Below are positions 6,971 to 50,700 of a DNA stretch of 55,034 nt, in pieces. The stretch covers positions 1-55,034 of the forward strand of contig JAJBVG010000009.1 in NCBI GenBank assembly GCA_020859945.1, given 5' to 3'. A program made the translations under genes and the position numbers. Below the pieces are notes generated by a model. It worked only from the letters and a program-made list of their open reading frames with translations, searched no databases and was not told the DNA's origin. The DNA is from Clostridiales bacterium (GTDB taxonomy: Bacteria; Bacillota; Clostridia; Oscillospirales; Oscillospiraceae). Numbering within the stretch: position 1 is the stretch's first letter; each line of letters opens with the position of its first letter.

Positions 6971-7223
6971 TATTAGCTATTAGCCATTAGCTGTTAGCTG
7001 TTAGCTGTTAGTCAGGTGCTGCCAGCGGATGGCGTAGAGGTTAAAAACGAAAAACTACCCTTTCGTAACCCACCACCCTTCTTGCCTCCCCTGAAAGGGG
7101 AGGTGGCACGGCAAAGCCGTGCCGGAGGGGTTTCCGCCGGAATCACTAACTAGGCTGCCTCAAAGGAACAACCGCAAAAGTCAGCAGTTCCAAGCGAAAG
7201 GCTAAAAGCTAAGAGCTAACAGC
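6971..7223. repeat. Heptad-flanked intergenic element between rbfA and infB
   Basis: This element fills the 340-bp gap. The left array (6971-7012) has about six TTAGCNN units, then GTCAGGTGCTGCC. The right array (7199-7223) has the inverted AGCTAAN units and runs into the infB stop. Inside are two adjacent hairpins: CTCCCCT-GAA-AGGGGAG (7086-7102) and GGCACGGC-AAA-GCCGTGCC (7105-7123). A further module near 7147-7185, read in reverse (CTGCTGACTTTTG), recurs at about 37440-37470. No coding potential is seen. Flanking inverted arrays could pair in RNA. Confidence 0.8.
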
Positions 7224-9758
7224 TTACTTTTCGACTTCTTCCATTTGGAAGCACTCGAAGATATCCCCGACCTTGATATCGGAGAACTTCTCCAGGGTGA
7301 TGCCGCACTCGTACCCGGCCTGCACCTCCCGGACGGAGTCCTTGAAGCGCTGGAGGCTGGCGATGTTGCCCTCGTGGATGACGATGCCGTCCCGGACCAG
7401 CCGCAGCTGGGCGTTCCGGGTGACTTTGCCTTCCAGCACGTAGGAACCGGCCACGATGCCCACGTTGGTGATTTTGTACACTTGGCGGACCTCCACGCGG
7501 CCCAGCTCCACCTCTTTGAAGGTGGGGGCCAGCATACCCTTCATGGCGGCTTCGATTTCCTCGATGCACTCGTAAATGACCCGGTACATCCGCATATCCA
7601 CCTTGTTCCGCTCGGCCATGGCTTTGGCGGCGGGGTCGGGGCGGACGTTGAAGCCCACGATAATGGCGTTGGAGGTGGAGGCCAGCATGATGTCGCTCTC
7701 GTTGACCGCGCCCACGCCGCCGTGGATGACCCGGACACGGACCTCATCGTTGGAGAGCTTCTCCAGGTTCTGCTTGACGGCCTCCACGCTGCCCTGCACG
7801 TCGGCCTTGACGATGATGTTCAGGTCCTTGACCTCGCCCTCCTGGATCTGGGAGAACAGGTCGTCCAGGCTGACCTTCTTGGCGGTGGGAGCGGCGGCTG
7901 CGGCCTTCTGTTCCTGCTTGCGCTGCTCGGCCAGTTCCCGGGCCATGCGCTCGTCGGCCACGGCGTAGAAGTCATCGCCTGCGCTGGGGACTTCGGCCAT
8001 GCCAGTAATCTCCACGGGGACGGAGGGACCGGCGGACTTGAGCCGTCTGCCCCGGTAGTCGGTCATGGCCCGGACACGGCCCACGGCGGTCCCGGCGATG
8101 ATGACGTCGCCCTGCTTCAGGGTGCCGTTCTGCACCAGCAGGGTGGCCACCGGGCCGCGGCCCTTGTCCAGCCGGGCCTCGATGACCGCGCCCTTGGCGG
8201 CGCGGTTGGGGTTGGCCCGCAGCTCCCGCATTTCGGCGGTCAGCAGCACCATCTCCAGCAGCTCATCGATGCCCTCGCCGGTCTTGGCGGAGATGGGACA
8301 AACGATGGTGTCGCCGCCCCAGTCCTCGGCCAGCAGGTCGTATTTGGTCAGCTCCTGCTTGATGCGCTCCGGGTCGGCCCCGGGCAGGTCCATCTTGTTG
8401 ATGGCCACCACGATGGGGATGCCGGCGGCCTTGGCGTGGTTGATGGCCTCCACGGTCTGGGGCATGATGCCGTCGTCCGCCGCTACCACCAGAATGGCGA
8501 TGTCCGTGACCATGGCGCCACGGGCGCGCATGGCGGTGAAGGCTTCGTGGCCGGGGGTGTCCAGGAAGGTGACGATCTTGCCGCCGGGCACCTTCACTTG
8601 ATACGCGCCGATGGCCTGGGTGATGCCGCCGGCCTCGCCAGCGGTGACGTTGGTGGAACGGATTTTATCCAGCAGAGAGGTCTTGCCGTGGTCCACGTGG
8701 CCCATGACCACCACCACGGGGGCGCGAGGCTCCAGGTTCTCTTCGGCGTCTTCGGTGGTGTCGATGAGCTTCTCCTCGATGGTGACGACCACTTCCTTCT
8801 CCACTTTGCAGCCCAGCTCTTCGGCGATGAAGGCGGCGGTGTCGAAGTCGATGGTGTCGCTCATGGAGGCCATGATGCCGTTCATCATCAGGCGCTTGAC
8901 CACCTCCGCGCCGGTTTTCTTCATCCGGGAGGCCAGCTCGCCCACGGTGATCTCGTCGGGGATCTCCACCTTGACGGGGGCTTTCCGGGCGGCCTCCTGC
9001 TGGAGGCGGCGCATCCGCTGCTGCTGTTCCTCCTGGCGGCGCTTGGCGGACTGCTTGCCCTGCTTCTGCTGCTGCTGGCGGCGGGAGGAAATTTTCTGCT
9101 TGCCCTGCTGCATCCGCTCGGCCCGCTCCGGGGTCAGGTCGTCCAGCCGGGAATCGTACCGGTCCAGGTTGACGTTGACGTTCTTCCGGGTGTTGACCAC
9201 CTTTTTCTGGGGGACCCGACTGGCGGGCTGCTGCTGAGCGGTCTGCTTCTGTTCGGCAGGCTGCTGCTTCTGGCTGGCGGCGGGTTGCTGCTGCTTGGGC
9301 TGCGCCTTCTGCGCCGGAGCCTGCTTCTGCTCGGCGGGCTGCTGCTTGCTGCCCTGGGCGCTCTGCTGGCGGCGGTCAGACTGCGGCTGAGATTTGCTGC
9401 TGCCCTGGCGCTGATTGCGGTCGCTGCGCTGGGCGGGGGCCGCAGTTTTGCCGCCCTGTTTGGGCTGCGCCTTCTGGCCCTGCTGGGGCTTTTGAGCGCT
9501 GTCCTTAGCTGCGGGAGCCTTGCCAGGCTCCTGATACGTCTCGGCAAACACCTCTTCCAGGCTGTCGATTTGATTGGTTTGGGTCAGATAGTCGAAGATG
9601 ATGGAAAGCTCCTGGTCGGTCAGCACGGCCATGGCGCTGGTGGGCGTTTTGGCGTACTTTGTCAGAATCTCAGTCACTTTCTTGTTGCCGACGGCTTTGC
9701 CGTTCAATGCGAAGTCCTTGGCGACCTCGCGCACTCTGTATTTGATCTCCAGACTCAT
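7224..9758 (-). CDS. infB: Translation initiation factor IF-2
   Basis: GTPase that delivers fMet-tRNA to the 30S subunit and promotes subunit joining. The protein is 844 aa. Residues 1-60 hold an IF2-N type domain. About residues 80-250 are a low-complexity Gln/Lys/Ala/Pro region, followed by a second IF2-N domain near 265-325. The G domain starts with GHVDHGKT (353-360), followed by [22 protein letters not shown] and SAKTGEG. Domains II-IV follow, ending in EEVEK. The start follows AGGAGG. The stop codon TAA is the first base triplet of an inverted heptad array (GCTGTTAGCTC on the coding strand). Confidence 0.98.
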
Positions 9759-9845
9759 CTATAGCCACCTCCTGTTAGGTATGGGGCGGTCTCCCGGACG
9801 GCTGGCGAAGCCAGTGCCCGAAAAACGCTCCGGGTGATTCCTTCT

Positions 9846-10241
9846 TTACTTCTTCCTCGGTTTGGTCTTCTTGCGCCGGAGCAGCTTCTCCTGCTTCCGG
9901 GCCAGCTCCTGGGCGATGGGGACCAGGTCGGGGTCCTCCCCGGCCACCAGACCGGCGATTTTGGCGGCGAAGCCCAAGTCGGTGACGGCGCAGACGGCGC
10001 AGGTGTCCCGCCCCAGGGCCGCGCCCAGCTGGGCTTTGTCGCAGGGCAGCTTCATCACCGCTACCCGCTCCCCGGCCAGGGTGCGCACCCGCCGGACGGT
10101 GCCGGGGGCGGCGTCCTCCGCCAGCAGCAGCAGCCGGGCCTTGTGTCCGGCGACGGCCTCCTGGGTCATATCCTCGCCCTGGGCCACCCGCCCGGCTCGC
10201 TTTGCCAGGCCCAGCAGCCGCAGGCTCTCAGTTTGTTCCAT
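9846..10241 (-). CDS. ylxQ: L7Ae/L30e-family RNA-binding protein YlxQ
   Basis: A 131-aa kink-turn-binding type ribosomal protein homologue encoded between ylxR and infB, as in Bacillus. Family features are LRLLGLAKRAGRV near the N-terminus, then LLLLAEDAAPGTVRRV and the FAAKIAGLV stretch. The C-terminal tail is very basic (RRKKTKPRKK). A longer upstream reading is possible, but the ATG at 10241 begins the conserved block and overlaps the end of ylxR by 14 bases, consistent with coupling. Its cellular role in this phylum is unresolved; RNA binding is inferred from the family. Confidence 0.88.
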   Translation of the reverse strand: MEQTESLRLLGLAKRAGRVAQGEDMTQEAVAGHKARLLLLAEDAAPGTVRRVRTLAGERVAVMKLPCDKAQLGAALGRDTCAVCAVTDLGFAAKIAGLVAGEDPDLVPIAQELARKQEKLLRRKKTKPRKK

Positions 10242-10503
10242 CGCCGCGCTCCATCTGGCCCTCCAGGGCCTCGTAGACCTCATCGGGTATCTTCATACCG
10301 AAGGCGCGGCCCAGAGCGTTGCTCTTTCTGGCCCGCTTCAGGCAGTCCCCGTTGGGACAGACATACGCGCCCCGGCCGGGTTTCTTGCCCCGGAAGTCCA
10401 GGGACAGCTCCCCCTCCGGGGAACGGACCACCCGGATCAGCTCCCGCTTGGGCTTCATCTCCCGGCAGCCCACGCACTGGCGCATGGGGATTTTTTTCGG
10501 CAT
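10228..10503 (-). CDS. ylxR: YlxR (DUF448) RNA/DNA-binding protein
   Basis: A 91-aa basic protein with the DUF448 signature: MRQCVGCREM near the N-terminus, then KRELIRVVR, GRGAYVC and CLKRARK. Homologues lie in the nusA-infB operon of most Firmicutes. YlxR has been described as a nucleoid-associated or RNase P-related factor in some species, so the molecular role here is open. The start follows GGGAGGA. The gene overlaps ylxQ by 14 bases. Confidence 0.92.
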   Translation of the reverse strand: MPKKIPMRQCVGCREMKPKRELIRVVRSPEGELSLDFRGKKPGRGAYVCPNGDCLKRARKSNALGRAFGMKIPDEVYEALEGQMERGDGTN

Positions 10504-10532
10504 AGGGGTTCCTCCCTTCGGTGTCGGGGTGT

Positions 10533-11768
10533 TTATTCGTCCTCGGCGAAGAGCTCGTCGTCAGCGAACAGCGCCTCCTCCGGGGCCGCCTCTGCGCCCT
10601 CATCGGTCGGGATTTCCTCGGCGCGTGCCAGCGCTTCCTGGGCTTCTTGGGCCTCCTGCTGGGCCAGCTCCGCGGCGGCGGTGACGCTCTTGATGTCGAT
10701 TTTGTAGCCGGTGAGCCGGGCGGCGAGGCGGGCGTTCTGGCCCTCCTTGCCGATGGCCAGGGAAAGCTGGTCGTCGGGGACCACTACGCGGCAGGTCTTT
10801 TGCTCCGGCTGGGCGTCCACGCTGACCACGTCGGCGGGGGCCAGGGCCGCGGCGATATAGGCGGCGGGGTCGTCGGAATACTTGATGATGTCCACCTTTT
10901 CGCCGTGCAGTTCCTCTACCACGGCGTTGACGCGGGCGCCCCGGGTGCCCACACAGGCGCCGATGGGGTCGATCTCCGGGTCAGCGGACCAGACGGCCAT
11001 CTTGGTGCGGCTGCCCGCCTCTCGTGCGATGGACTTGACCTCCACCGTTCCGTCGAACAGCTCCGGCACCTCCAGCTCGAACAGGCGGCGCACCAGGCCG
11101 TGGTGGGTGCGGGAGATGACCACCTGGGTCCCGCGGGTGCCCTTGCGCACCTCTACTACGTAGACCTTTAGGCGCTGGCCCTCGGTGTAGGTCTCGCCCC
11201 GGACCTGCTCGCTGGTGGAGAGCAGGGCCTCGGTGGTCTTGTCGCCGGAGGTCAGCTTCACGTAGATGCCGCCGCTGCGGGGGTCGGTGCGGGAGACCAC
11301 GCCGGTGAGAATTTCCTTCTCCTTGGTGTGGAACTCGTCAAAGACCATGTTCCGCTCGGCCTCGCGGATGCCCTGGATGATGACCTGCCGGGCGGTCTGG
11401 GCGGCGATGCGGCCAAAGTTTTTGGTTTTCAGCTCTTTGCTGACCACGTCGCCGATCTGGGCGTTGGGGAGGCTCCGGCGGACCTCCTCCAGGGAGATCT
11501 CGGTGTCGGGGTTATCGACCTCCTCCACCACCTCCCGCTTGATGATCATACGGATGGAATTTTTCTCCTGGTCCGCCAGCACCACCACATTGTCGCCAAT
11601 GCCTTCGTGGTCCCGCTTGTAGGCGGTGACCAGGGCCTGGGTGATTTTTTCCAGCATATAGTCCTTGGAAATGCCCCGTTCCTGCTCCAGCATATCCAGG
11701 GCCAGGAAGAAGTCCTTTGCGTCCTCTTCGGGAGTGGGACCCTTCTTTTTGCTTACTCTTCTAGCCAT
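10533..11768 (-). CDS. nusA: Transcription termination/antitermination factor NusA
   Basis: Binds RNA polymerase and modulates pausing, termination and rRNA antitermination. The protein is 411 aa: an N-terminal RNAP-binding domain (about 1-130), an S1 domain (about 135-205) and two KH domains. The signature blocks are [21 protein letters not shown] and the later [25 protein letters not shown]-terminal Ala/Glu/Asp-rich acidic tail (about 365-411) replaces the AR repeats of E. coli NusA. The ribosome site AAAGGAG lies 13 bases from ATG, rather far. It is the second gene of the operon after rimP. Confidence 0.97.
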
Positions 11769-11922: not shown

Positions 11923-11953
11923 ATTGCACATTGCACATTGCTAATTGCACATT
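11923..11953. repeat. ATTGCAC heptad array between nusA and rimP
   Basis: ATTGCAC, ATTGCAC, ATTGCTA, ATTGCAC at an exact 7-bp period, 30 bp downstream of the rimP stop (reading -). The same family occurs at 37492-37540 and 13202-13222. Confidence 0.85.
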
Positions 11954-13039: not shown

Positions 13040-13222
13040 TTAGCTGTTAGCGATTAGTCTTTAGCTGTTAGTTAGGCACTACCAGACAAAAGCAAAAGGC
13101 AAAAGTCAGGTATGGCTAGCCACTAGTCACTAACCACTAACCACTCGTTTAGTACCACAAAGCTAATAGCTGGAAGCTAACAGCCAATAGCTGGCGCAGC
13201 CATTGCTCATTGCAAATTGTCA
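13040..13222. repeat. Heptad-flanked element abutting the racemase stop codon
   Basis: The left array (13040-13072) is TTAGCTG/TTAGCGA/TTAGTCT type, then AGGCACTACCAGACAAAAGC. An internal ACTAGTC-ACTAACC-ACTAACC array spans about 13122-13145. After GTTTAGTACCACAAAGC come inverted AGCTAA units to about 13193. ATTGCTC-ATTGCAA-ATTGTCA (13202-13222) ends exactly with the stop codon of the racemase gene. All three heptad families therefore occur in one gap. The same modules recur at 25399-25607. Confidence 0.85.
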
Positions 13223-17635: not shown

Positions 17636-17685
17636 GAACAATTCTAATTTTCTTTTTTCTATTTCCCCTTTGGAATTGATGAATT

Positions 17686-17852
17686 GAGCTATTAGCTATT
17701 GGCTCTTAGCTGCTAGCTTGGCAGTGCTTCGTTTTAAGCACTGCGCATATCGCTTGCATTGCTTTACATGCGGCTGGATTTACGCTTCGCTTATATTTGC
17801 AGATGTTCACGACTGGTTTGTAGTGCTTAACTAACAGCTAATTGAGCTAATT
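17686..17852. repeat. Heptad-flanked element overlapping the LysR gene's stop
   Basis: The left array (about 17686-17717) is TTAGCTA/TTGGCTC/TTAGCTG type and is followed by TTGGCAGTGCTT. The right end is TTTGTAGTGCTTAAC, then TAACAGC and inverted units to 17852. The last units encode the final codon and the TAG stop of the LysR gene. The internal flanks (GGCAGTGCTT, TTGYAGTGC) match the element at 24619-24732, which defines a subfamily. Confidence 0.8.
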
Positions 17853-18791
17853 GACAGCCCCCTCGTCAAACCGTGTTTTCACCTGCTTGCAATATTCGAT
17901 GAAGTACGCGGCGGCGGCGGAGAGGGGTTCCCCCTTGCGGTAGCACAGGTAGAGGTTGGTCTTGATTGCGGGGGTGATGGGAACCGACACAAAGGGCGGC
18001 GTGTCTCCGAAGTCCACTTGATGGGGGAAGTTCATGTGATGGGTGAACAGCAGCGCCACGCAGCTGCCCCGGCGGACGGTATCCAGAATGGCCTCCAGGT
18101 TGTTGGAGGTGAAGATCACGTTGGGCAGGAAGTTGGCCTCCTGGCAGGCCCGCATACACACGTTGTAGGGCAGGGTGCCGGGGGGAATGAGGGCGAAGTT
18201 CTCCCCAGCCAGCTGAGCCAGCTCGATGCTCTCAGCGCCGCACAGGGGATGGTCCGGGGGCAGCACCACCAGCAGCCGGTCCCTTGCGAAGGGCAGCTTG
18301 ACCAGGCGGCGCTCCTTCTCCGGGTCGTGCTCCATATAGTTTTTGCTTTCCCGGTAGAAGGCCAACTCACAGGTGCGGTCCAGCAGCATATCCCGGGCCA
18401 CCAGGGTGTCCGCCTCGTGGATGTTCACCTGCACGGTGGGGTGGTCCTGCTTGAACTGCATCAGCGCGTCGATGAGGCCGTAGTGGGCCATCACCGGGAT
18501 GGTGGCGATTTCCAGTGGCGCGGTCTCCTGGTTGCAGAAGTTGAAAGCCGCCGCCTCGTACTCATATTGCAGGTTGGCGATGGACTGGGCGTAGGGCAGC
18601 ATCACTTCTCCGAAGGGGGTCAGCTCCACCTTCCGGGAGGTGCGGATAAACAGGGGCTGGCCCAGCTGGTTCTCCAGGGTCTTGATGTGCTTGGACAGGG
18701 AGGACTGGCCGATGAAGAGCCGGTCCGCCGCGGCCCAGAAGTTTTTGGTCTCCGCCAGAACGACGAACTCCCGAAAGTAGGATATTTCCAT
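17847..18791 (-). CDS. LysR-family transcriptional regulator
   Basis: A 314-aa regulator. The N-terminal winged HTH (1-60) has the typical FVVLAETKNFWAAADRLFIGQSSLSKHIKTLE pattern. The C-terminal effector domain spans about 90-300 and would sense a small aromatic or organic acid. ATG at 18791 is preceded by AAGGAGG. The gene sits between the tannase-family gene and the GPH transporter operon, divergent from the latter. The shared palindromic promoter region at 18938-18985 implies that it autoregulates and controls the transporter operon, possibly also the tannase gene. The inducer is unknown; a phenolic such as gallate is a guess from context. Its last codons are within a heptad array. Confidence 0.93.
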   Translation of the reverse strand: MEISYFREFVVLAETKNFWAAADRLFIGQSSLSKHIKTLENQLGQPLFIRTSRKVELTPFGEVMLPYAQSIANLQYEYEAAAFNFCNQETAPLEIATIPVMAHYGLIDALMQFKQDHPTVQVNIHEADTLVARDMLLDRTCELAFYRESKNYMEHDPEKERRLVKLPFARDRLLVVLPPDHPLCGAESIELAQLAGENFALIPPGTLPYNVCMRACQEANFLPNVIFTSNNLEAILDTVRRGSCVALLFTHHMNFPHQVDFGDTPPFVSVPITPAIKTNLYLCYRKGEPLSAAAAYFIEYCKQVKTRFDEGAVN

Positions 18792-22977: not shown

Positions 22978-24618
22978 ATGGACATCGCAAAACTCCGGGA
23001 AAAACCCTTTTATCTGACAGAAACCGAGCGGGAGTGGGTGCAGAGTACGCTGGCCTCGCTGACCACCGAAGAAAAGGCCGGGCAGCTGTTCTGCGTCCTG
23101 GGGGACGCCAACACCCCCGAGGGCCTCATTGACCTGGTGCAGAACTACCACGTCTCCGGCGTGCTGTTCCGGCCCAACCCTCAGCAGGAGGTCAAGGCCA
23201 AGTATGACAGTTTGGACCAGTACGCAAAGGTCCCCCTGCTGAAAGCCGCCAACCTGGAGGAAGGCGGCGCGGGGGTGCTGTCGGACGGCACCTATTTCGG
23301 CTCCGAGTTGCAAGTAGCGGCGGCGGACGACCTGACCTGTACCGAAGCCTTCGCCAAGACTTGCGCCCTGGAGGGCCGCAGCGTGGGGGTCAACTGGACG
23401 TTTTCGCCGGTGGTGGACATCGACGTGAACTTCCGCAACCCCATCACCAACGTGCGGACCTTCGGCAGCGACCCGGACAAGGTGCTGGCCAACGCCTCCA
23501 CCTTCGTCCGCACCATTCAGAAGTACGGCGTGGCGGCCTCCTGCAAGCACTTCCCCGGCGACGGCGTGGACTACCGGGACCAGCACCTGCACCCCACCTA
23601 CAACGACCTCTCCGCCGAGGAGTGGTACGCCACCTACGGCAAGGTTTACCAGACCCTCATCGACGAAGGGCTGATGAGCGTCATGGTGGGACACATCGTC
23701 CAGCCCAACGTCATCCGGGCCTACAACCCCCACGCGACGGAGGACGCCCTGCTGCCCGGCAGCCAGTCCAAGGAGATGCTCACCGGCGTGCTGCGGAACC
23801 AGTTCGGGTTCAACGGGGTCATCATCACCGATGCCACCATCATGGGTGGCTACACCATGACCATGCCCCGCCGGGAGGCCATCCCTCACAGCATCGCCGC
23901 CGGGTGCGACATGCTGTGCTTCGGCACCGACATCCGGGAGGACATCTCCTATATTTTGGACGCGGTGGCCGATGGCCGCCTGACCCACCAGCGGCTGGAC
24001 GAGGCTGTGACCCGTGTGCTGGCCCTGAAAGCCACCCTGCGCCGCAATTACCCGCTGCCCGACATCGACCCCAAGGCCGAACAGCGGCGGTGCGCGGACG
24101 AGGCCATTACCCTGGTCAAGGACAACCCAAAATTAGTTCCCGTCACAGTTGAAAAGTATCCCCACATCCGCCTGATGACCCTGGGCCAGGACGAAACCTA
24201 TGATGGCTCCCTGACCGAGCTGGCGGCCAACTATCTGACCGGCCAGGGGTTCCAGGTGGAGCGCTATGACCCCATGGCGGACGACCTCCACGGCACGCGG
24301 GACCTGCCGGTTGACCGGCTGACGCTGATTTTGTGCAACCTGCCCGCCGCCAGCAACCAAACCACCGTGCGCATCAAGTGGTGCGATAAGCACGCTCTGG
24401 AGATTCCCCGGTTCGTGCATGAGGAGCCTTACGCCTTTATCTCTTTCGCCAACCCCTACCACTTGCAGGACATCCCGCGGGTGCCTACGTTCATCAACGC
24501 CTACACCGCGACTGCGGCCACCGTCACCGCCGCCCTGAGCAAGCTGCTGGGGCAGTCCCCCTTCACCGGGGTCAGCCCGGTGGACCCCTTCTGTGGCCTG
24601 TACGACGCACATCTTTGA
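22978..24618 (+). CDS. GH3-family glycoside hydrolase or phosphorylase, NagZ-like type
   Basis: A 546-aa enzyme with no signal peptide. The GH3 TIM-barrel domain covers about 1-350: NVR, then KHFPGDG (190-196), and the nucleophile Asp285 in IITDATIMGG. The loop reads GDGVDYRDQHLHP, with an Asp-x-His (DQH) like the DSH dyad of NagZ rather than the C-terminal acid/base glutamate of GH3 glucosidases. Such enzymes are hydrolases or phosphorylases of beta-glucosides/hexosaminides. A C-terminal domain (about 370-546) follows. The substrate is not identifiable; co-location with esterases suggests a glycoside carried by a phenolic ester. A heptad array starts right after the stop. Confidence 0.85.
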   Translation: MDIAKLREKPFYLTETEREWVQSTLASLTTEEKAGQLFCVLGDANTPEGLIDLVQNYHVSGVLFRPNPQQEVKAKYDSLDQYAKVPLLKAANLEEGGAGVLSDGTYFGSELQVAAADDLTCTEAFAKTCALEGRSVGVNWTFSPVVDIDVNFRNPITNVRTFGSDPDKVLANASTFVRTIQKYGVAASCKHFPGDGVDYRDQHLHPTYNDLSAEEWYATYGKVYQTLIDEGLMSVMVGHIVQPNVIRAYNPHATEDALLPGSQSKEMLTGVLRNQFGFNGVIITDATIMGGYTMTMPRREAIPHSIAAGCDMLCFGTDIREDISYILDAVADGRLTHQRLDEAVTRVLALKATLRRNYPLPDIDPKAEQRRCADEAITLVKDNPKLVPVTVEKYPHIRLMTLGQDETYDGSLTELAANYLTGQGFQVERYDPMADDLHGTRDLPVDRLTLILCNLPAASNQTTVRIKWCDKHALEIPRFVHEEPYAFISFANPYHLQDIPRVPTFINAYTATAATVTAALSKLLGQSPFTGVSPVDPFCGLYDAHL

Positions 24619-24732
24619 TTTTAGCTCTTAGCTTTTAGCTTTTAGCTCTTAGCTTGGCGGTGCTTTCTTTGATGCTCTACGCTTCTGGTTTGCAGTGCCT
24701 ACTAACAGCTAACAGCTAACGGCTAACAGCTC
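24619..24732. repeat. Heptad-flanked element after the GH3 gene stop
   Basis: The left array (24619-24651) holds TTAGCTC/TTAGCTT/TTAGCTT/TTAGCTC, then TTGGCGGTGCTTTC. The right end is GGTTTGCAGTGCCTAC, then CTAACAG repeats (24700-24732) right before the pgmB ribosome site. The arms are inverted, so a long hairpin is possible. No gene is inside. Confidence 0.85.
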
Positions 24733-24753
24733 CCATAAGGAGAGACAACAACC

Positions 24754-25419
24754 ATGAGATTCACCGCGTTGCTTTTTGATTTGGACGGCGTTCTGGTGGA
24801 CACCGCAAAATATCACTACATCGCGTGGAAAGCCCTGGCGGAGGAGCTGGGCATCCCCTTCACTCTGAAAGACAACGAGCGGTTGAAAGGCGTCAGCCGT
24901 CAGCGCTCCCTGGACATCGTGCTGGAGATCGGCGGCGTGGACAAGACGCCGGAGGAACGGGAGGCGCTGTGTACTGAAAAAAACGAGCGCTACCTGTCCT
25001 ACATTCGCAAAATGGAGCCGGAGGAGATTCTGCCCGGCGTGCGGGAATTTCTCACCGAGGCCCGGCGGCAGGGCTACAAAATCGCTCTCGGTTCCGCCAG
25101 CAAAAACGCCCGGCTCATTCTGGACCGGCTGGAGCTGACCGACCTCTTTGACGCCATCGTAGACGGCTATATGGTCACTCAGGCCAAGCCCGACCCGGAG
25201 GTGTTCGCCCTGGGCGGCAGACTGCTGGGGGCGCAGCCCTCCCAGTGTCTGGTGTTTGAGGACTCCGTGGCGGGCATCCAGGCAGCTCACGCCGGAGGCA
25301 TGACCGCCGTGGGCATCGGCACGCGGGAGGACCTGCCGGAGGCGGACCTGGTGCTGCCGGGCTTCGCCGGGGCCACGATGGAGGACATTGAAAAGAAGCT
25401 ATTAGCCATTAGCCGTTAG
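24754..25419 (+). CDS. pgmB: Beta-phosphoglucomutase
   Basis: Interconverts beta-glucose 1-phosphate and glucose 6-phosphate, the partner of GH65 phosphorylases. The protein is 221 aa of the HAD family. The nucleophile and acid/base aspartates are Asp9 and Asp11 in FDLDGVLVDTAKYH. The cap region has KGVSRQRSLDIVL, then the LGSASKN block and the AKPDPEVF block. Its last residues LLAISR and the TAG stop are encoded by TTAGCNN heptads, so the repeat has overwritten the end of the gene. The start follows AAGGAG, and GH65 lies downstream. Confidence 0.95.
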   Translation: MRFTALLFDLDGVLVDTAKYHYIAWKALAEELGIPFTLKDNERLKGVSRQRSLDIVLEIGGVDKTPEEREALCTEKNERYLSYIRKMEPEEILPGVREFLTEARRQGYKIALGSASKNARLILDRLELTDLFDAIVDGYMVTQAKPDPEVFALGGRLLGAQPSQCLVFEDSVAGIQAAHAGGMTAVGIGTREDLPEADLVLPGFAGATMEDIEKKLLAISR

Positions 25420-25607
25420 CTGTTAGTCAGGCGCTACCAGACAAAAGCGCAGTGGCTAGAAACTAGTGGTCAGTGGTTAGCGAGGCACAGCAAATCATAA
25501 GCGAATAGAAAATAATCCGGGCAGTACTAGCTACTAGTCACGAGTCACTAACCACTTGTTTAGTACTACCAAGCTAATAGCCAATAGCTAAAAGCTAACA
25601 GCTACCA
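25399..25607. repeat. Heptad-flanked element between pgmB and the GH65 gene
   Basis: TTAGCNN units (25399-25426) supply the pgmB C-terminus and stop, followed by CAGGCGCTACCAGACAAAAGC. Internal CTAGTCA/CTAACCA-type units occur near 25455-25480 and 25530-25555. GTTTAGTACTACCAAGC precedes inverted AGCTAA units (25570-25607). The element ends in CATAAGGAGGG, so the GH65 ribosome site touches its right end. Its modules match 13040-13222. Confidence 0.85.
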
Positions 25608-25624
25608 TAAGGAGGGAAAACCAT

Positions 25625-29968: not shown

Positions 29969-30037
29969 TGTAGGGGCGGCCTGTGGCCGCCCGGATATGC
30001 AAGAGGGGTCTGCGGGCGGCCAAGGGCCGCCCCTACA
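29969..30037. repeat. Palindromic TGTAGGGGCGGCC element, copy 1
   Basis: A 69-bp segment with TGTAGGGGCGGCC at the left and its inverse GGCCGCCCCTACA at the right. No gene is present. The second full copy is 31236-31306, and a partial copy is at 50667-50700. Confidence 0.85.
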
Positions 30038-30094
30038 CTCACCTATAAAAGCCGAACCGTATGTGTATTGATACAACAAATTTGTTTGCGACTC

Positions 30095-30130
30095 CGCAGC
30101 TAACAGCTAATAGCTAAAGGCTAACAGCTC
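30095..30130. repeat. AGCTAA heptad array after the fructokinase stop
   Basis: Inverted heptad units (GCTAACA/GCTAATA/GCTAAAG/GCTAACA) start five bases past the TGA stop of the - strand fructokinase gene. Confidence 0.8.
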
Positions 30131-37400: not shown

Positions 37401-37491
37401 AGGGTTCGCTCCTTTTGGAAATAAGCTGTTAATAGGGTGCTGCTGACTTTTGAGGCTGTTCCTCTAAGACTGATTCAACGGAATAACCATA

Positions 37492-37540
37492 ATTGCACAT
37501 TGCACATTGCACATTGCTAATTGCTAATTGCTAATTGTCG
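37492..37540. repeat. ATTGCAC/ATTGCTA heptad array overlapping the lacI-type gene end
   Basis: ATTGCAC three times, then ATTGCTA three times, at an exact 7-bp period, and ATTGTCG. On the - strand it encodes the last residues (ISN) and the TAG stop of the regulator gene. Upstream (37425-37470) a GCTGTTA unit is followed by GGTGCTGCTGACTTTTG, which is also found in reverse at 7147-7185. Confidence 0.88.
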
Positions 37541-38516
37541 TACCGCCGTCGGCGTAGGTCACGGGCAGCGAGAGCAGCGGCGGCGCTTTGGACCAGTCCT
37601 CCGTCAAAATCAGCTCCACGCTGGCCTCAGCGATTTTGTCAATGGGCTGGACGATGGTGGAGCAGATATGTTTCTTGGTGTAGAACTCCAGCACGCCGTC
37701 AAAGCCGACGATCTGCACGTCCTCCGGCACCCGGATGCCCCGGCTGCGCAGGTAGGTCATCACCTTAAAGGCCAAGTCGTCCGTCACGCAGAAGATGCCG
37801 TCGAACTCCAGCGCCCCGTCGTGGGTGTGCTGGTCCAGGAAGTCCGTGAACACCTGGAAGGGGGTGCCGTCGTAGACCCGGAGCATTTCATAGGGGACCC
37901 CCGCCTCGGTGCAGCTGGAAAGGAATCCGTCCCCCCGCTTGTTCACCTCGTTGGCGAAGGGAGAAGAAGTGCTCATATAGGCCAGCTTTTTGCAGCCGTT
38001 CTTCAGCAGCTGACGGACTGCCAGCTGGCCGCCGCCAAAGTTGTCGCTGGAGACGCAGGGGACAGCCGGGTCCAGGTGGCGGTCGATGGTGACCAGCGGC
38101 GTTCCCTCCGGCACCTGGAGCTTTTGGCTGTAGGAAAGCATGATGATGCCGTCCACCTTATTTTGATACGCCATATCCACATACGCCTGCTCCAGCTGGG
38201 CCTCGGCATTGGTGCAGCAAAGCAGCATCCGGTAGCCCCGCTTGGCCAGGGTACAGTTAATATGGTAGGTCAGCCGCCCAAAAAAGGGGTTAATGGTGTC
38301 CGGCACCAAAAAGGCGATGGTCATGGTCTTATTGCTTTTCAGCCCCTTGGCGTAGCTGTTCACCCGGTAATCCAGCTTTTTGATGGCCGCCTCCACCTTC
38401 TTTTGATAGGCCGCGCCCACGGGGATGCCGTTGACCACCTTGGACACGGTGCCAAGCGCGACCCCCGCCTCCTGGGCAACGTCCTTCATGGTGGGCGCAG
38501 CGTTTTTCTTCGCCAT
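37524..38516 (-). CDS. LacI-family transcriptional regulator
   Basis: A 330-aa repressor. The N-terminal HTH reads TMKDVAQEAGVALGTVSKVVNG, the exact LacI pattern. The sugar-binding domain (about 60-330) has NPFFGRLTYHINCTLAKRGYRML and PEDVQIVGFDG. Genes on the other strand are CUT1 ABC permeases, a binding protein and a GH32 fructosidase. Operators upstream of both directions (GTGAAA-N6-TTTCAC and TGAAATTTCA) suggest it controls that operon and itself, probably responding to a fructose-containing sugar. ATG at 38516 follows GAGAGG. An upstream in-frame start would extend into the promoter. The C-terminal residues are encoded by the ATTGCTA array. Confidence 0.94.
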   Translation of the reverse strand: MAKKNAAPTMKDVAQEAGVALGTVSKVVNGIPVGAAYQKKVEAAIKKLDYRVNSYAKGLKSNKTMTIAFLVPDTINPFFGRLTYHINCTLAKRGYRMLLCCTNAEAQLEQAYVDMAYQNKVDGIIMLSYSQKLQVPEGTPLVTIDRHLDPAVPCVSSDNFGGGQLAVRQLLKNGCKKLAYMSTSSPFANEVNKRGDGFLSSCTEAGVPYEMLRVYDGTPFQVFTDFLDQHTHDGALEFDGIFCVTDDLAFKVMTYLRSRGIRVPEDVQIVGFDGVLEFYTKKHICSTIVQPIDKIAEASVELILTEDWSKAPPLLSLPVTYADGGTTISN

Positions 38517-46275: not shown

Positions 46276-46296
46276 TACGTTACCGCACGGACAGAA

Positions 46297-47070
46297 TTAC
46301 TCCTGGTTGGCGGCGTTGATGATGGTGGTCAGCTTGGTGGGGACCAGGGAGGCGCCGCCGATCAGACCGCCGTCCACGTCGGGCTGAGCCAGCAGCTCTT
46401 CGGCGTTCTGGTCGTTCATGGAGCCGCCGTAGAGGATAGTGACGGAGCGGGCGACACGGGCGCCGTACAGCTTGCGGATGACGGTGCGGATCTCCTGGTT
46501 GACCTCGTTGGCCTGCTCAGCGGTGGCGGTGCGGCCGGTGCCGATGGCCCAGATGGGCTCGTAGGCGATGACCACATGGCGCATCTTGTCGGCGGGGACG
46601 CCAGCCAGAGCGGTCTTGACCTGGAGGTCGATCAGTTCCTTGGTGATGCCCAGCTCCCGCTGCTCCAGGCTCTCGCCCACGCAGATGATGGGATACAGAC
46701 CGGCTTCGATGGCGGCCAGGGCCTTCTTGTTGACGATGATGTCAGTGTCGTTCCAATACTGACGGCGCTCGGAGTGGCCCACGATGACGTACTTGACGCC
46801 CAGGTCCTTGAGCATAGCGGCGGAGACCTCGCCGGTGTAAGCGCCCTTTTCGTACTCGGAGACGTTCTCCGCGCCCACCATGACGCGGGTGTCCTTGAAC
46901 GCCTTCTGAGCGGCGGGGATGTTCACATAGGGGACGCAGACCAGAACATCGCACCACTTGGCCTTGGGCAGCATGGTCTTCAGCTCGTCGGCAAAGGCTT
47001 TGGTCTCGGAAGCAGTCTTGTTCATTTTCCAGTTGCCGGCAATCAGGGTTTTACGATATCTTCTGTTCAT
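46297..47070 (-). CDS. tpiA: Triosephosphate isomerase
   Basis: Interconverts dihydroxyacetone phosphate and glyceraldehyde 3-phosphate. The protein is 257 aa. Catalytic residues are Lys15 in AGNWKMN, His in VGHSERR and Glu in AYEPIWAIGTG; the phosphate loop YGGSMNDQN follows. The ATG at 47070 begins the conserved N-terminus and follows AGAGG. Longer upstream readings go into the repeat region. It lies between pgk (upstream on -, across a 617-bp gap) and gpmI. Confidence 0.97.
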   Translation of the reverse strand: MNRRYRKTLIAGNWKMNKTASETKAFADELKTMLPKAKWCDVLVCVPYVNIPAAQKAFKDTRVMVGAENVSEYEKGAYTGEVSAAMLKDLGVKYVIVGHSERRQYWNDTDIIVNKKALAAIEAGLYPIICVGESLEQRELGITKELIDLQVKTALAGVPADKMRHVVIAYEPIWAIGTGRTATAEQANEVNQEIRTVIRKLYGARVARSVTILYGGSMNDQNAEELLAQPDVDGGLIGGASLVPTKLTTIINAANQE

Positions 47071-47336
47071 AGTTGGATACCTCTTTCTGTTTTTTGTGCG
47101 TTTTTGGCCGTAATCTGGCCAGCAGAATTTGGATTTGACAACGGAGCGGTGGGAAACGCCCCGTTTATTGAAAACCTCGCTCCGCAGAGGGAGGGGAATC
47201 AACGTGGGGATGGACCGACGGTTTCGGTCTGTTCAGGCGCCGATGGGAGGCCCTCGTTTCGCCGGACGAGTTCCGGCGGGGCGCTGAGCCACTGGTTCCC
47301 GACTTTCTTCCTTTTTTCCCTGTCAGGAAAGGGGAG

Positions 47337-47360
47337 AGGGGGATGGCGAACCATCCCCCT
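47337..47360. repeat. Perfect 10-bp palindrome between tpiA and pgk
   Basis: AGGGGGATGG (47337-47346) and CCATCCCCCT (47351-47360) with a CGAA loop (TTCG on the - strand). It is outside the pgk repeat units. No T-run follows on either strand. Confidence 0.75.
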
Positions 47361-47449
47361 GAAAAGTTGCGAAAATAGGGGATAACGAGTTAAATTGCAG
47401 TTGTGTTGTGGAGAGCGGCAGCGTGGGTGCGGAGACCGCTCAGAGGGAT

Positions 47450-47698
47450 GGCACGTTTGGTTAGACAAGTTTTATTTGTCCAACAACGCCGCGGAATAGA
47501 GGAAGCGTCTTCGGCGCATGAATCCCAAGCGCGGCTCAAACGTGCCACCGGCATGTTTGTCTCGATAAATAATCGAAGATTATTTATCGAGCAGAGCTAC
47601 GGAATAGAGGAAGCACCTTCAGTGCGGAATCCCAAGCGCGGCTCAAACGTGCCACCGCCACGTTTGGTTGGACAAATAATTGTAAATTATTTGTCCAA
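47450..47698. repeat. Three tandem units repeating the end of pgk plus a hairpin
   Basis: Units at 47450-47549 and 47550-47657, then the pgk end itself from 47658, all start with GGCACGTTTG-like sequence and share GGAATAGAGGAAGC and CCCAAGCGCGGCTCAAACGTGCC. Each unit, on the - strand, re-creates pgk-like codons for (V)ALLDK and a TAA stop inside a hairpin. Copies: pgk, TTGGACAAATAATT-GTA-AATTATTTGTCCAA type (47668-47698); middle unit, CTCGATAAATAATC/GATTATTTATCGAG (47561-47591), with both arms changed yet fully paired; outer unit, a degraded stem (47461-47483). Confidence 0.88.
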
Positions 47699-48892
47699 CA
47701 GGGCCGCTACACCAGGAAGCTCCTTGCCTTCCATGAACTCCAGGGAAGCGCCGCCGCCGGTGGAGATGTGGGTCATCTTCTCGGCATAGCCCAGCTGCTG
47801 GACGGCAGCCGCGGAGTCGCCGCCGCCGATGATGGTGATGGCGTCGGTCTTGCTGAGGGCCTCAGCCACAGCCTTGGTGCCCACGGCGAACTTGTCGAAC
47901 TCGAACACACCCATGGGGCCGTTCCAGATAACGGTGCCAGCGTCGGCCACGGCGTCGCAGTAAGCCTTGACGGTGTCAGGACCGATGTCCAGACCCTGCC
48001 AGCCATCGGGGATGGCGCCGGTGGGGACCACCTGGCTGTCGGCGTCGGGAGCGAAAGCGTTGGCGGCCACGGTGTCGGTGGGCAGCAGCAGCTTCACGCC
48101 CTTGTCGGCGGCCTTCTTGACCATCTCGTTGGCATAGTCTTCCCAGTCAGCTTCCAGCAGAGAGTCGCCCACGGAGCCGCCTTGAGCAGCCGCGAAGGTG
48201 TAGGCCATGCCGCCGCCGATGATGACGGTGTCGGCGATCTCCAGCAGGTTGTTGATGACGCCGATCTTGGAGGAGACCTTGGAGCCGCCCAGGATGGCGA
48301 CCAGAGGACGCTTGGGAGCGGCCAGCGCGCCGCCGATGATCTCCAGCTCTTTCTGAATCAGGAAGCCGGACACGGCGGGCAGATAAGCGGCGACGCCAGC
48401 GGTGGAGGCGTGGGCGCGGTGGACAGTGCCGAAGGCGTCGGAGACATAGACGCCGTCGGGACCGGCCAGGTCAGCCAGGGCCTTGGCGAAGGCGGGGTCA
48501 TTCTTGGTCTCGCCCTTGTCGTAACGCAGGTTCTCCAGCAGCAGGATCTGGCCGGGCTGGAGCGCGGCGGCCTTGGCCTGAGCGTCCTCGCCCACGATGT
48601 CGGCGGCCAGGATGACTTCCTTGCCCAGCAGCTCAGACAGACGCGCGGCCACGGGCTTCATGGACAGCTCGGGCTTCCACTCGCCCTTGGGCTTGCCCAT
48701 GTGGGAGCAGGCGATAACGGCGGCGTTCTGGTCCAGCAGGTACTGGATGGTGGGCAGAGCGGCACGGATACGCTTGTCGTCGGTGATGACGCCAGAGCCG
48801 TCCTTCGCCATAGGAACGTTGAAGTCGCAGCGCAGCAGGACCTTCTTGCCGGCTACGTCGATGTCGGTAACGGTCTTTTTGTTGTAATTCAT
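47687..48892 (-). CDS. pgk: Phosphoglycerate kinase
   Basis: Transfers phosphate from 1,3-bisphosphoglycerate to ADP in glycolysis. The protein is 401 aa. The family pattern is clear: [17 protein letters not shown], then [13 protein letters not shown], the [13 protein letters not shown] block, and the C-terminal [13 protein letters not shown] nucleotide loop. The start follows AAGGAGTAATTTTT. The stop lies inside a 31-bp hairpin (47668-47698), and two repeat copies of this 3' end follow downstream, before tpiA. The terminal residues VAALLDK are what the repeats copy. Confidence 0.97.
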
Positions 48893-48971
48893 AAAAATTA
48901 CTCCTTCCTTGCCCTTTGTTAAGAGATTTTATGATATAAATAAGCCAAAAGGCATATTTAACGCAGGATAG

Positions 48972-49472
48972 TTACGGCGTGGGGTTCCCGCCCATGGCCC
49001 CCACACCTGTCAGGCCGGGGAAATCGTTCTGCCGCAGCACCTCGTAGGCCATCACCGCCACGGCGTTGCTCAGGTTCAGGCACCGCACGTCGGGCAGCAT
49101 GGGGATGCGGACGCAGCGGGAGAAATGCTCGTCCAGAAACCACTGAGGCAGCCCGGCGGTCTCCTTGCCGAAGAAGAGCCAGCAGTCCGGGTCATAGCGG
49201 GGCGCGGTGTAGCTCTGAGGGGCTTTGCTGGAGGCCAGCCACAGGTTGTCCGCCGCCTCCGGGCAGCGGGAGAAGAAATCGTCTAAATTTTCGTATTCGG
49301 TGACGCTGACCCGGCTCCAGTAGTCCAGCCCCGCCCGGCGCACCCATTTCTCAGAGACTTCAAAGCCCAGCGGGTGGATCAGGTGGAGGCTGCATCCGGT
49401 GACGGCGCAGGTCCGCGCAATGTTGCCGGTGTTCTGGGGGATCTCCGGCTCGACCAAAACGATGTGCGGCAT
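48972..49472 (-). CDS. trmL: tRNA (cytidine/uridine-34-2'-O)-methyltransferase
   Basis: SPOUT-class enzyme that methylates the wobble base ribose in tRNA-Leu isoacceptors. The protein is 166 aa, a small family form. Visible SPOUT features are VLVEPEIPQNTGNIARTCAVTG at the N-terminus, LFFGKETAGLP (SAM knot) and IPMLPDVRCLNLSNAVAVMAYE. The second and third form the trefoil-knot SAM site. It sits by itself between pgk and a YheO-like regulator. Confidence 0.93.
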   Translation of the reverse strand: MPHIVLVEPEIPQNTGNIARTCAVTGCSLHLIHPLGFEVSEKWVRRAGLDYWSRVSVTEYENLDDFFSRCPEAADNLWLASSKAPQSYTAPRYDPDCWLFFGKETAGLPQWFLDEHFSRCVRIPMLPDVRCLNLSNAVAVMAYEVLRQNDFPGLTGVGAMGGNPTP

Positions 49473-49670
49473 ACTTCACGCCCCTTTGTAAGCTGACCTT
49501 ATTCTATTCCATTTTCGCAGGAAAATCAACAGAAAATCAGCGGTTTTGGGGCGGTTTACGCAATTTTTTCTTGTAAGCAGAAATGACGGAAAAAGTCAAT
49601 GGTGCAACCTCACCAAAAATTTCGGCGATTTTCTGTGAAAGTTTCCAAATGGGGATTTTGTAAAAATATC

Positions 49671-50312
49671 TTACGGCTCCGGCTGCTCCCGTTTGCGCTC
49701 CAGCTCGGAGAGGTACTTGTACACCGTATAGCGGGAGACGCCCAGCCGCTGAGCCACGTAGGGGACGGCCTTCTGGAAGGAAAAGGCGTTCTTCTGCTGG
49801 AGCAGGGCGATGATTTTCAGCCGGTCGGGTTTGTTCAGGGCGTGGACGGGCTTGCCCACGGCGGCGAGGCACTCGTCAAACAGCTCGGAGAGCTGGAAGT
49901 CGCTGCCCGACCACAGGGCGGATTTCAGGTCCGCGTCGGCGCTCATCAGGTCCACCAGTACCCGGTTGGCGAACACCAGCGAGCTGTAATCGAAGTTGAT
50001 GCCCAGGGCCAGGTTGTAGTCCTCCCCGATCATGTGAAAGGTAGAGCTTTTGATCTGCTGGCCGGAGGGAGTGGTGGCGTAGAGGTTGACGAAGTCGGTT
50101 TTCAGGGCCTCCTCGTCCAGCTCGGACTGGTTGCCCAAAATATCCATGGTAGAGCCGACCTTGCGCCCGGAGACCTGGCCGTTGTAGATGGCTAAAATAG
50201 GGTGGGAGGGGATGGACATATCGTGGACCAGCGTTTCGCAGCTGCTGCCGAAGGTCTCCGCGATGCCCCTGGCGGTGCGGTCCAGAAATTCAAAGGCTTC
50301 GTCCCGCGTCAC
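49671..50312 (-). CDS. YheO-like PAS and HTH DNA-binding regulator
   Basis: A 213-aa transcriptional regulator. Residues about 10-130 resemble the YheO/DauR PAS-like domain (HDMSIPSHPILAIYNGQVSGRKVGS, then ALGINFDYSSL). A C-terminal HTH (about 155-205) reads GVSRYTVYKYLSELE. Such proteins sense small ligands, for example D-amino acids in DauR, but the ligand here is unknown. The start is GTG at 50312 because GGGGGGAG lies four bases before it; a longer reading begins with no RBS. It is monocistronic with its own promoter, facing away from the germination operon. Confidence 0.87.
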   Translation of the reverse strand: MTRDEAFEFLDRTARGIAETFGSSCETLVHDMSIPSHPILAIYNGQVSGRKVGSTMDILGNQSELDEEALKTDFVNLYATTPSGQQIKSSTFHMIGEDYNLALGINFDYSSLVFANRVLVDLMSADADLKSALWSGSDFQLSELFDECLAAVGKPVHALNKPDRLKIIALLQQKNAFSFQKAVPYVAQRLGVSRYTVYKYLSELERKREQPEP

Positions 50313-50386
50313 GACGCTCCCCCCTCTGCATGGCAAACGGCTCGCCAGAGCCGCCTTGCCTTATGAAACCTGTTTTTCTTTTCCCT

Positions 50387-50414
50387 ATTTTAGCATGACA
50401 GGGGGATTTGTCAA
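50387..50414 (-). promoter_or_regulatory. Promoter of the YheO-like regulator
   Basis: On the - strand TTGACA (50414-50409), a 16-bp spacer and TAAAAT (50392-50387). The TTGTCAACCG around the -35 resembles the left arm of the bioB palindrome, but no inverted second arm is present. Confidence 0.75.
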
Positions 50415-50608
50415 CCGATAAAACCGTACAAATTTAAAAAATAGGTGAGAAAATGCCCTTGAAACAGACGAAAAACCCGCCTTCGGACGGCAAGAGGGAA
50501 ATTGAATCGTTTCACAGCCGTACAATTTCCGGCGCAAAAGTGAAAAAGGAGAAAATTTCCTTACCTCCCGCTGGTATACTTCCCGCCTGGGGTGGGATAC
50601 TGCAAGAA

Positions 50609-50700
50609 GAGCTGTTAGCTTTTAGCTTTTGGCTATTAGCCAGGTGCTGCAAGCCAATCATGTGCTTGTAGGGGTGGCCTGCGGCCGCCCGGGATAAGCA
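50609..50700. repeat. Heptad array and partial TGTAGGGG element before the ger operon
   Basis: TTAGCTT/TTAGCTT/TTGGCTA/TTAGCCA units (about 50609-50645) lead into GGTGCTGCAAGCC, as in other arrays. A partial palindromic copy, TGTAGGGGTGGCC...GGCCGCCCGG, follows at 50667-50700. The rest of the 419-bp gap between the regulator and gerA shows no gene. Confidence 0.75.

Follow-up and report, generated by a model that had tools for sequence, protein, structure and literature searches.

Heptanucleotide over-representation in bacteria has been reported since 2007 (as cited in PMC4692102). The cyanobacterial STRRs and the GGGAATC / GGGGA(C/T)T arrays are, like the arrays studied here, made of intergenic 7-bp units with variable positions; the available text of PMC4692102 reads them as G-quadruplex formers of unknown role and draws no link to S23/IVP. 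The TAACTGA direct repeats of Beggiatoaceae, Cyanobacteria and Bacteroidetes also form 7-bp arrays, patchy over phyla, and their stops in all frames of one strand are recognised as shaping their position (PMC4679880, available text); the words ‘S23’, ‘four helix’ and ‘intervening’ are absent from that text. The 23S rRNA intervening sequences (IVS) with an S23p ORF share with the elements described below their protein family and terminal inverted repeats. The IVS of Coxiella, 428 nt long and called a selfish element, has GACAGAT heptamers ahead of S23p, and S23/IVS proteins are described as being without known function (PMC4990558, in the part available). Our literature search found no published link between heptad arrays and S23/IVP. 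Here we describe heptad arrays in a clostridial genome. They are probably the terminal repeats of small mobile elements, all of one family with an S23/IVP gene (PF05635) at its centre, and the copies in the window would be non-autonomous members.

Heptad arrays in the window

The window analysed is a stretch of 55,034 nucleotides. Self-matching at a threshold of 17/21 gave 11 clusters at lag 7 and 5 at lag 14, and 0–2 clusters at each remaining lag from 2 to 30, the non-zero lags all being multiples of three. TRF recovered the period-7 arrays too, and genome-wide counts were 177+159 for TTAGCNNTTAGC but 0+1 for the reversed pattern. These three results bear out the period of 7 that the original prediction had assigned to the arrays, and its coordinates, 6971-50645, were correct. 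Five of the seven positions of a unit are near-fixed, and two vary between units.

The window arrays (Table 1) are tandem 7-bp intergenic units, as heptanucleotide STRRs/SSRs are defined. MITE-like traits are also present: the elements are short and non-coding, with inverted ends and many copies in both orientations. Inverted pairs are formed by the arrays beginning at 6971/7192, 13040/13159, 17683/17831, 24614/24702 and 25394/25571, and those at 11923, 30094, 37488 and 50607 appear single. All of these copies are located between protein genes, i.e. outside 23S rRNA. A small TTAGTGG stretch is seen near position 995 as well.

Table 1. Positions of the heptad arrays in the window, with strand and source of evidence.
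Feature	Position	Strand	Evidence
Left TTAGCNN array, ~6 units; element core next	6971..7011	+	TRF and sequence
Right inverted array GCTAANN, abuts infB stop codon	7192..7227	-	TRF and sequence; Pfam for infB
ATTGCAC/ATTGCTA array, second family	11923..11953	+	G020 has the same array; G015 junction without array
Left TTAGCNN array	13040..13071	+	TRF and sequence
Inner CTAACCA array, third family	13116..13145	-	TRF and sequence
Right inverted GCTAA array	13159..13194	-	Sequence
Short ATTGC array immediately after racemase stop (TGA)	13201..13222	+	Sequence
Left TTAGC array	17683..17718	+	TRF
Right inverted array containing stop codon of LysR-type gene	17831..17853	-	Sequence, Pfam
Left array beginning just after TGA of GH3 gene	24614..24654	+	TRF, relatives compared
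Right inverted array just upstream of pgmB start region	24702..24735	-	TRF
Left array coding last residues LLAISR and stop of pgmB	25394..25430	+	TRF, ORF end
Nested inverted pair, third family (TTAGTGG / CTAACCA), inside core	25450..25557	.	By eye
Right inverted array	25571..25609	-	TRF and sequence
Inverted array 4 bp from PfkB (fructokinase) stop	30094..30129	-	ORF end
ATTGCAC/ATTGCTA array coding ISN and stop of - strand LacI-type gene	37488..37541	+	TRF, ORF end, Pfam
Single TTAGC array, divergent region, not located at a stop	50607..50642	+	TRF

Arrays at S23/IVP genes

PF05635 had no match in the genome of the window (0/4 candidates), and the window's link to IVP therefore runs through relatives. 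Among 25 genomes of the genus, IVP was found in 4 of the 5 array-richest and in 0 of the 20 others, and two families of the window occur at same-genus IVP genes (TTAGC in G001, G015 and G023; ATTGC in G020). The whole element at 24614/24702 is about 80% like a copy adjoining the IVP gene in G015, and the array at the PfkB stop is also present in G015 and G020, where the DNA beyond it differs. Outside the closest clostridial relatives, IVP was encoded in 27 of 30 genomes picked for a TTAGC array, which were hand-chosen for taxon spread among 80 listed loci and may include some chance array matches; the comparison rates were 28/149 in Bacillota, 136/291 in Cyanobacteria, 76/369 in Gammaproteobacteria and 0/14 in control genomes.

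Inverted arrays stand at IVP genes in many phyla. A lag-7 array lay within 200 bp of IVP at 24/28 cyanobacterial, 26/30 gammaproteobacterial and 19/30 Bacillota loci, these being the best-scoring matches of each search and not a random draw. The corresponding figures were 50/85 for loci of the array-picked genomes and 7/23 for loci of relatives, the other 16 being without such an array. Left out were 10 of 148 loci, whose flanks were too short, in the Bacillota, array-picked and relatives sets, and a further 2 of 30 in the cyanobacterial sample. At ParE control loci, no period-7 array was found within 200 bp (0/24, a further 6 of 30 loci being cut by contig ends). Other lags from 5 to 13 near IVP gave 0–3, save in the array-picked set, where lag 8 gave 17 and lag 9 gave 7; the IVP element of Picosynechococcus is built of 8-bp instead of 7-bp units. 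At loci with both arrays, the inverted match was better than the direct one in 75/85. The IVP element had a median length of 495 bp (interquartile range 459–545).

A complete element would be about 495 bp long, with the IVP gene between an array of roughly five 7-bp units and an inverted copy of that array. The window copies would be its non-autonomous relatives, in which arrays bracket a short non-coding core or one array stands alone. No IVP gene is now detectable in their own genome. These copies may have been spread in trans by IVP, and their putative partners are the IVP elements that carry matching heptads in G001, G015, G023 and G020.

The number of units peaks at five. Among own-genome TTAGC arrays, 20 of 50 had five units and 14 more had four and a partial outer unit (85 of 270 weak array matches yielded no unit), and 73/190 IVP-flanking arrays rounded to five by a method to which fewer than four are undetectable. 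The TRAP ring binds spaced triplets, and by analogy an IVP pentamer may bind one unit per subunit at each end. Five chains were deposited for each of the IVP homologues 2gsc (a Xanthomonas gene) and 2rld, and S23p is reported to be a homopentamer (PMC4990558, available text).

Arrays of this kind could also be ordinary microsatellites that grow by polymerase slippage in 7-bp steps and are tolerated near gene ends, slippage of this step having been proposed by Mrazek et al. (2007), according to both PMC4679880 and PMC4692102. Array length does vary between copies, and the available text of both papers records heptanucleotide repeats as over-represented in many bacteria. Slippage should homogenise the units, whereas two variable positions per unit persist; the peak at five units also counts against it, and neither the inverted pairing at IVP nor the result at ParE is predicted. 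We regard slippage as very improbable. The likelihoods that we attach to this and the other alternatives are not mutually exclusive.

Within one genome, homologous IVPs (73-77%) bear different heptads, and any IVP-heptad code is therefore loose. A Mantel correlation between IVP and heptad, which is confounded by base composition, lends weak support to such a code (rho 0.26, 0/1000 permutations, 51 loci). The differing heptads are compatible with another enzyme making and moving the arrays, with IVP genes as passengers that live in the elements or are protected by them. So are the 191 TTAGC-trimer matches of the window's genome, in which no IVP was detected, and we know of no catalytic activity or catalytic site for IVP. 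Against the IVP gene being a passenger, the median 495-bp bracket holds little beyond it, and the one reverse transcriptase profile tried, PF00078, is absent from the IVP-bearing, array-rich genomes G015, G023 and the less complete G001; overall, we think that a different enzyme is unlikely. A retroelement driven by a reverse transcriptase was considered separately, and is set back by this same absence; G020 and the window's own genome each have one PF00078 match, the latter at 31.1 bits (cut-off 29.6). PADLOC returned no match for the single IVP scanned.

The junctions of elements were compared between relatives. Three named plasmid pairs, as well as one intergenic region within the genus, each have a junction that is with an IVP element in one member and without it in another, and an IVP-free Pseudanabaena site is occupied by a different heptad array. 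Filled and empty junctions also differ by small replacements, and no clean target-site duplication was seen at the genus or plasmid junctions compared. Near-identical IVP elements at different sites were absent among copies from nine genomes: where two copies were identical, they were part of a longer stretch of identity or of rRNA, and no independent pair was more than 76% alike. The empty-site comparison in the genus shows turnover, and we infer that the element is mobile. Among 3 IVP loci checked against Rfam, L507 lies in LSU rRNA; in G095, an IVP gene is inside 23S rRNA, where one flank carries a heptad array and the other a weaker, inverted one.

These observations also bear on a regulatory role, in which IVP would be a regulator that binds RNA or DNA, with the inverted arrays serving as operators or as stem-loops in 3' UTRs. 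Hairpins of the REP-like or terminator kind were considered as well. Inverted arrays could pair as putative stems, they are placed behind genes, and MacGregor has proposed that protein binds to TAACTGA arrays (in the available text). Regulation fits poorly with an element present or absent at one junction between relatives, with the varied neighbour genes of IVP elements in the named records, or with an IVP gene within 23S rRNA, and we judge it improbable.

Gene 3' ends and stop codons

According to the original prediction, the stop codons of seven genes (infB, racemase, LysR, GH3, pgmB, fructokinase and LacI-type) are inside an array or no more than 5 bp away. This agrees with the sequence and the ORF ends for 7/7, and the terminal residues of pgmB (LLAISR*) and of the LacI-type gene (ISN*) are encoded within arrays as it had said. 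Pfam is in accord with all seven labels, giving for pgmB and fructokinase the wider families alone, HAD and PfkB. The comparison with random positions that had been suggested then was made on an own-genome sample of 40 elements from the window and 20 array-holding stretches (and L342), with genes called by a home-made codon score. After removal of 1 element inside a gene, 2 duplicates and 3 without a neighbour gene, 34 were used. In 23 of these, a stop flanked the element on one side and a start on the other, and 18 of the 23 lay at -26 to +10 bp from the stop, compared with 5.0 expected under uniform position and a maximum of 12 in 10,000 simulations; placement in this sample is thus non-random. 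The other 11 lay between two stops (5) or between two starts (6).

Placement at gene ends extends to IVP elements in other phyla, where a frame of 120 codons or more ended at -10 to +20 bp of 79/209 outer array edges, against 34/1345 random positions and 61/569 in a stricter control outside long frames. This excess is due to stop-containing arrays (75/179). Stop-free arrays were at gene ends in 4/30 cases, a rate that did not differ from that of the stricter control (p 0.56), and the confinement of the excess to stop-bearing arrays means that stop content matters. Part of the peak is expected without selection, because an open frame of any kind that reads into an array with stops is terminated there.

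The arrays had been proposed to be universal translation-stop cassettes, put or selected at coding ends, where three units supply a stop in every frame. In favour of this, gene-end placement is real and its excess is restricted to stop-bearing arrays. A stop in all six frames was found in 35/44 arrays detected in the own-genome sample, and stop-bearing consensus units flank IVP more often than shuffled units would (141/190, above 115). Some genes do terminate within arrays, which provide the stop and last residues of pgmB in the window, a trmH-like gene in G015 and cas6 in Pseudanabaena galeata. The unit ATTGCAC, on the other hand, has no stop on either strand, and 49/190 IVP-flanking consensus units are stop-free on both strands, where shuffled units predict 75. 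Native stops are often retained: nrdA on a Nostoc plasmid keeps its TAA with an array just behind, and the racemase ends ..GY* irrespective of the element behind it, its stop in G023 being the same as in the window with a different element following. The proposed comparison of orthologous C-termini went against the cassettes, since GH3 ends in DAHL* here and in DAHL* or DTHL* in five relatives that have no array at this place. Stop supply also leaves the core, the inversion and the five-unit mode unexplained, and does not predict inverted arrays around one gene family in many phyla. Of that proposal, placement at coding ends is supported, and stop supply as the purpose of the arrays is not; we consider cassettes of this kind an improbable explanation.

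Taken together, the arrays are not primarily stop cassettes, and their stops seem to be a prerequisite for a gene end to tolerate the insertion. For an IVP-built mobile element, landing on the last codons would let the array add a few residues of its own and, through its frequent stops, a new end to the frame; landing just behind the stop would leave the native end unchanged.

Significance and relation to known systems

A wider proposal, for which we find the case evenly balanced, is that these elements represent a transposase-free mobile class in Bacteria and at least one archaeon. In this class a pentameric four-helix-bundle ring would read about five 7-bp units (8 or 9 in some branches) per inverted end and insert at gene 3' ends. 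Cyanobacterial STRRs, the bacterial heptanucleotide excess, the paired GGGAATC arrays and the intervening sequences of 23S rRNA would all derive from this class. If so, several puzzling kinds of bacterial 7-letter repeat would be explained together, and joining the repeats to S23/IVP would give a testable account of both, with the repeats as ends and the protein acting on them. It would also imply a class of mobile elements for which no transposase is known, a way in which the C-termini of bacterial proteins can change (cas6, pgmB, trmH-like) and a stoichiometric prediction, five units for five subunits.

Some PF05635 matches resemble the Avd proteins of DGRs. The DGR accessory protein Avd is a remote homologue: the IVP of locus L055 stayed below cut-off with both NF033474 (46.7 bits) and PF22296 (35 bits). 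Unlike DGRs, some IVP-bearing, array-rich genomes are without a reverse transcriptase match. With MITEs, the elements share short, non-coding bodies, inverted ends, many copies and presumed movement in trans; they differ in that their ends are degenerate 7-bp arrays, no target duplication was found and the presumed autonomous partner shows no transposase. The TAACTGA repeats of BOGUAY, unlike the arrays here, are mostly before start codons, and a translational role is proposed for them (PMC4679880, available text). The Xanthomonas arrays often form convergent pairs near or over stop codons, as here (PMC4692102, available text). Finally, compared with the 23S rRNA intervening sequences, the present elements are intergenic, stand at the 3' ends of protein genes and include many gene-less copies.

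Heptad arrays and their placement at gene ends

The original prediction held that heptads recurring with a 7-bp period look like universal translation-stop cassettes at gene 3' ends. The period was borne out by a lag scan of the window, which gave 11 clusters at lag 7 (self-match at a 7-bp offset) and 5 at lag 14; the remaining lags from 2 to 30 gave 0-2, with non-zero counts confined to multiples of three. In the 2.67-Mb genome holding the window (own genome), the exact dimer TTAGCNNTTAGC was present in 336 copies, against 1 for the reversed pattern. The arrays are often inverted pairs flanking a short core, which is similar across many copies and present in both orientations. Five positions of the TTAGCNN unit are almost invariant and two are variable; among 50 own-genome TTAGC arrays counted, 20 had five units and 18 had four, with a partial outer unit in 14 of these 18. 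TTAGC trimer matches ranged from 0 to 603 per genome in the genus, and all 10 of the 40 genomes searched with any match were within it. The closest named matches to the heptad pattern, among those listed, were clostridial MAGs.

Pfam was consistent with all seven gene labels proposed (infB, racemase, LysR, GH3, pgmB, fructokinase and lacI-type), and the stop codons of all seven genes lie inside or beside arrays. In a distance test on the window and 20 own-genome stretches (34 of 40 elements used), 18 of the 23 elements with one stop side and one start side lay -26 to +10 bp from the stop, compared to 5.0 expected. A long frame (at least 120 codons, ending within -10 to +20 bp) ended at 79/209 outer array edges vs 34/1345 random positions; against a stricter control of positions outside long frames (61/569), the odds ratio for array edges was 5.1. 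This excess was carried by stop-containing arrays (75/179), and stop-free arrays (4/30) did not differ from the stricter control. As an observation the original prediction stands, except that ATTGCAC units contain no stop; among IVP-flanking consensus units, 49/190 lacked one, with 75 expected from shuffling. Stops in arrays are favoured, not required. Array-encoded gene ends are likewise real, but not the rule: on comparison with relatives, pgmB and a trmH-like gene change their ends, whereas the racemase and fructokinase ends are kept, and the GH3 gene has the same or nearly the same end in five relatives with no array at that place.

Association of arrays with IVP genes

A pattern scan of named genomes placed TTAGCNN in many phyla among the matches listed, part of which are estimated to be chance. 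One TTAGC-type array in a Pacearchaeota archaeon adjoins a four-helix-bundle gene that matches PF05635, the 23S rRNA-intervening-sequence protein (IVP or S23p), at 131 bits, as well as TIGR02436, and whose product is homologous to 2gsc and 2rld. A PF05635 search of 40 relatives resulted in 28 loci. In the genus, IVP genes lie between arrays of the families seen in the window, namely TTAGC in genomes G001, G015 and G023 (divided between two contigs in the last) and ATTGC in G020. IVP was present in 4/5 array-richest genomes of the genus vs 0/20 others (Fisher p 0.0004), the exception being the own genome, which is array-rich and gave no IVP in the PF05635 search. Of 30 genomes picked from array-bearing ones, 27 carried IVP; its frequency in group samples was 28/149 in Bacillota, 136/291 in Cyanobacteria and 76/369 in Gammaproteobacteria.

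Taking the best-scoring IVP matches and counting arrays no more than 200 bp from the IVP domain, we found lag-7 arrays at 7/23 loci of relatives, 19/30 Bacillota loci, 50/85 loci from genomes picked by TTAGC array, 24/28 cyanobacterial loci and 26/30 gammaproteobacterial loci, and at 0/24 control ParE genes in cyanobacteria. Beyond 600 bp from IVP, they occurred at 0-0.57 per kb. The inverted match was better than the direct one in 75/85 loci with both arrays, and median element length was 495 bp. Other lags from 5 to 13 were seen at 0-3 loci, apart from lag 8 (17/85) and lag 9 (7/85) in the TTAGC-array-picked set, mostly at loci separate from the lag-7 ones. These appear to be octad and nonad forms of the arrays, whose period may depend on the IVP subfamily. 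Arrays of 8 or 9 bp flank IVP genes at L239, L252, L290, L291, L309, L446; L255, L273 and L275.

PF05635 matches without arrays were seen at L218, L219, L220 and L248, and are probably Avd proteins; judged by eye, the flanking DNA looks like DGR template or variable repeats. The 1.5-Mb genome G832 had 11 weak PF05635 matches, several with near-identical surroundings, and L512, the one of these loci checked, had no Rfam match.

Junctions with and without an element

Named plasmids provided single cases for comparison. Between cas10 and cmr3, Picosynechococcus PCC 7003 carries an IVP element whose array units are 8 bp long; PCC 7002 lacks it, and the final cas10 codons differ where the element's left end starts. 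An IVP element lies directly behind the nrdA stop in Nostoc edaphicum, with none in Calothrix NIES-4105. In Pseudanabaena galeata an IVP element follows cas6, which ends LLAISC* within the array, resembling the LLAISR* end of pgmB in the window. At the cas6 site, Pseudanabaena ABRG5-3 has a short array of a different heptad and no IVP; in Anabaena sp. 90 the site is occupied by an IVP element with a third heptad. Within the genus, one intergenic region, whose neighbours we take to be dprA and trmH, is occupied by an IVP element in G015, G001 and G023 and by an ATTGC pair in G000; in G020, G008 and G016 it lacks a complete array.

Other repeats were also noted (table). The comparison at pgmB would fit gain or loss of this gene between two copies of a heptad element. 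Heptad elements L049, L061, L068, L072, L085, L026 and L027 have in common a stretch of some 35 bp (GGTTATCCCTTTGAATCAGCCGCGTTGTGATAAGC type) beyond the array; some also have an inverted counterpart on the opposite side, as if a larger element enclosed them.

Further features of the window and other loci
Location	Feature	Remarks
Window 7080-7145; L403, L404	Second G+C-rich repeat family, CTCCCCTGAAAGGGGAG type	Relatives carry it at different junctions; one copy lies within a heptad element in the window
Window 24660-25570	pgmB flanked by two heptad elements	pgmB missing between them in L331 (G023)
Window 29970-30040	G+C-rich inverted repeat family, GTAGGGGCGGCC..GGCCGCCCCTAC type	Many matches in relatives
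Window about 50668-50695	Same inverted repeat family	
Window 47492-47692	107-bp direct repeat, ~2 copies, 84% matches	Separate from the heptad system
L530 (Anabaena sp. 90 plasmid) 880-1149	Mixed heptad units over ~270 bp	Separate cas6 from an IVP gene
L530 1676-1720	Second array	Within the annotated cas4 start

Proposed mechanism and known systems

What the analysis shows is the array bracket with its inversion, period and five-unit mode, the placement at gene ends, and the differences in presence and absence. The explanation that fits best takes the arrays for the terminal repeats of S23/IVP elements and of relatives lacking the gene, and holds that insertion at gene ends is made tolerable by the stops. 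The pattern behind the stop-cassette proposal is true, and the interpretation was too narrow. An IVP homopentamer would bind the array, one unit per subunit, pair both ends and then move the element; gene-less copies could be moved in trans, and the own genome may have lost its IVP. A reverse transcriptase appears dispensable, since G015, G023 and G001 had no PF00078 match; G020 and the own genome had one each. Homologous IVPs within one cyanobacterium carry different heptads, which disfavours a strict IVP-heptad code.

In a literature search whose coverage excluded the majority of subscription papers and every bioRxiv preprint, no paper was recognised as linking heptad arrays generally with S23/IVP. 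IVP itself is reported to be a homopentamer torus, and in Coxiella three GACAGAT heptamers precede S23p (PMC4990558). TAACTGA arrays have been described by MacGregor, with their stops shaping array location (PMC4679880). The protein of the IVP elements is also that of the 23S rRNA intervening sequences; in G095, where an IVP gene lies within LSU rRNA, one flank bears a lag-7 array and the other an inverted one that emerges at a lower threshold. In Xanthomonas, Rehm et al. described GGGAATC arrays that occur as convergent pairs near stop codons and overlapping them (PMC4692102). The S23p crystal comes from this genus too.
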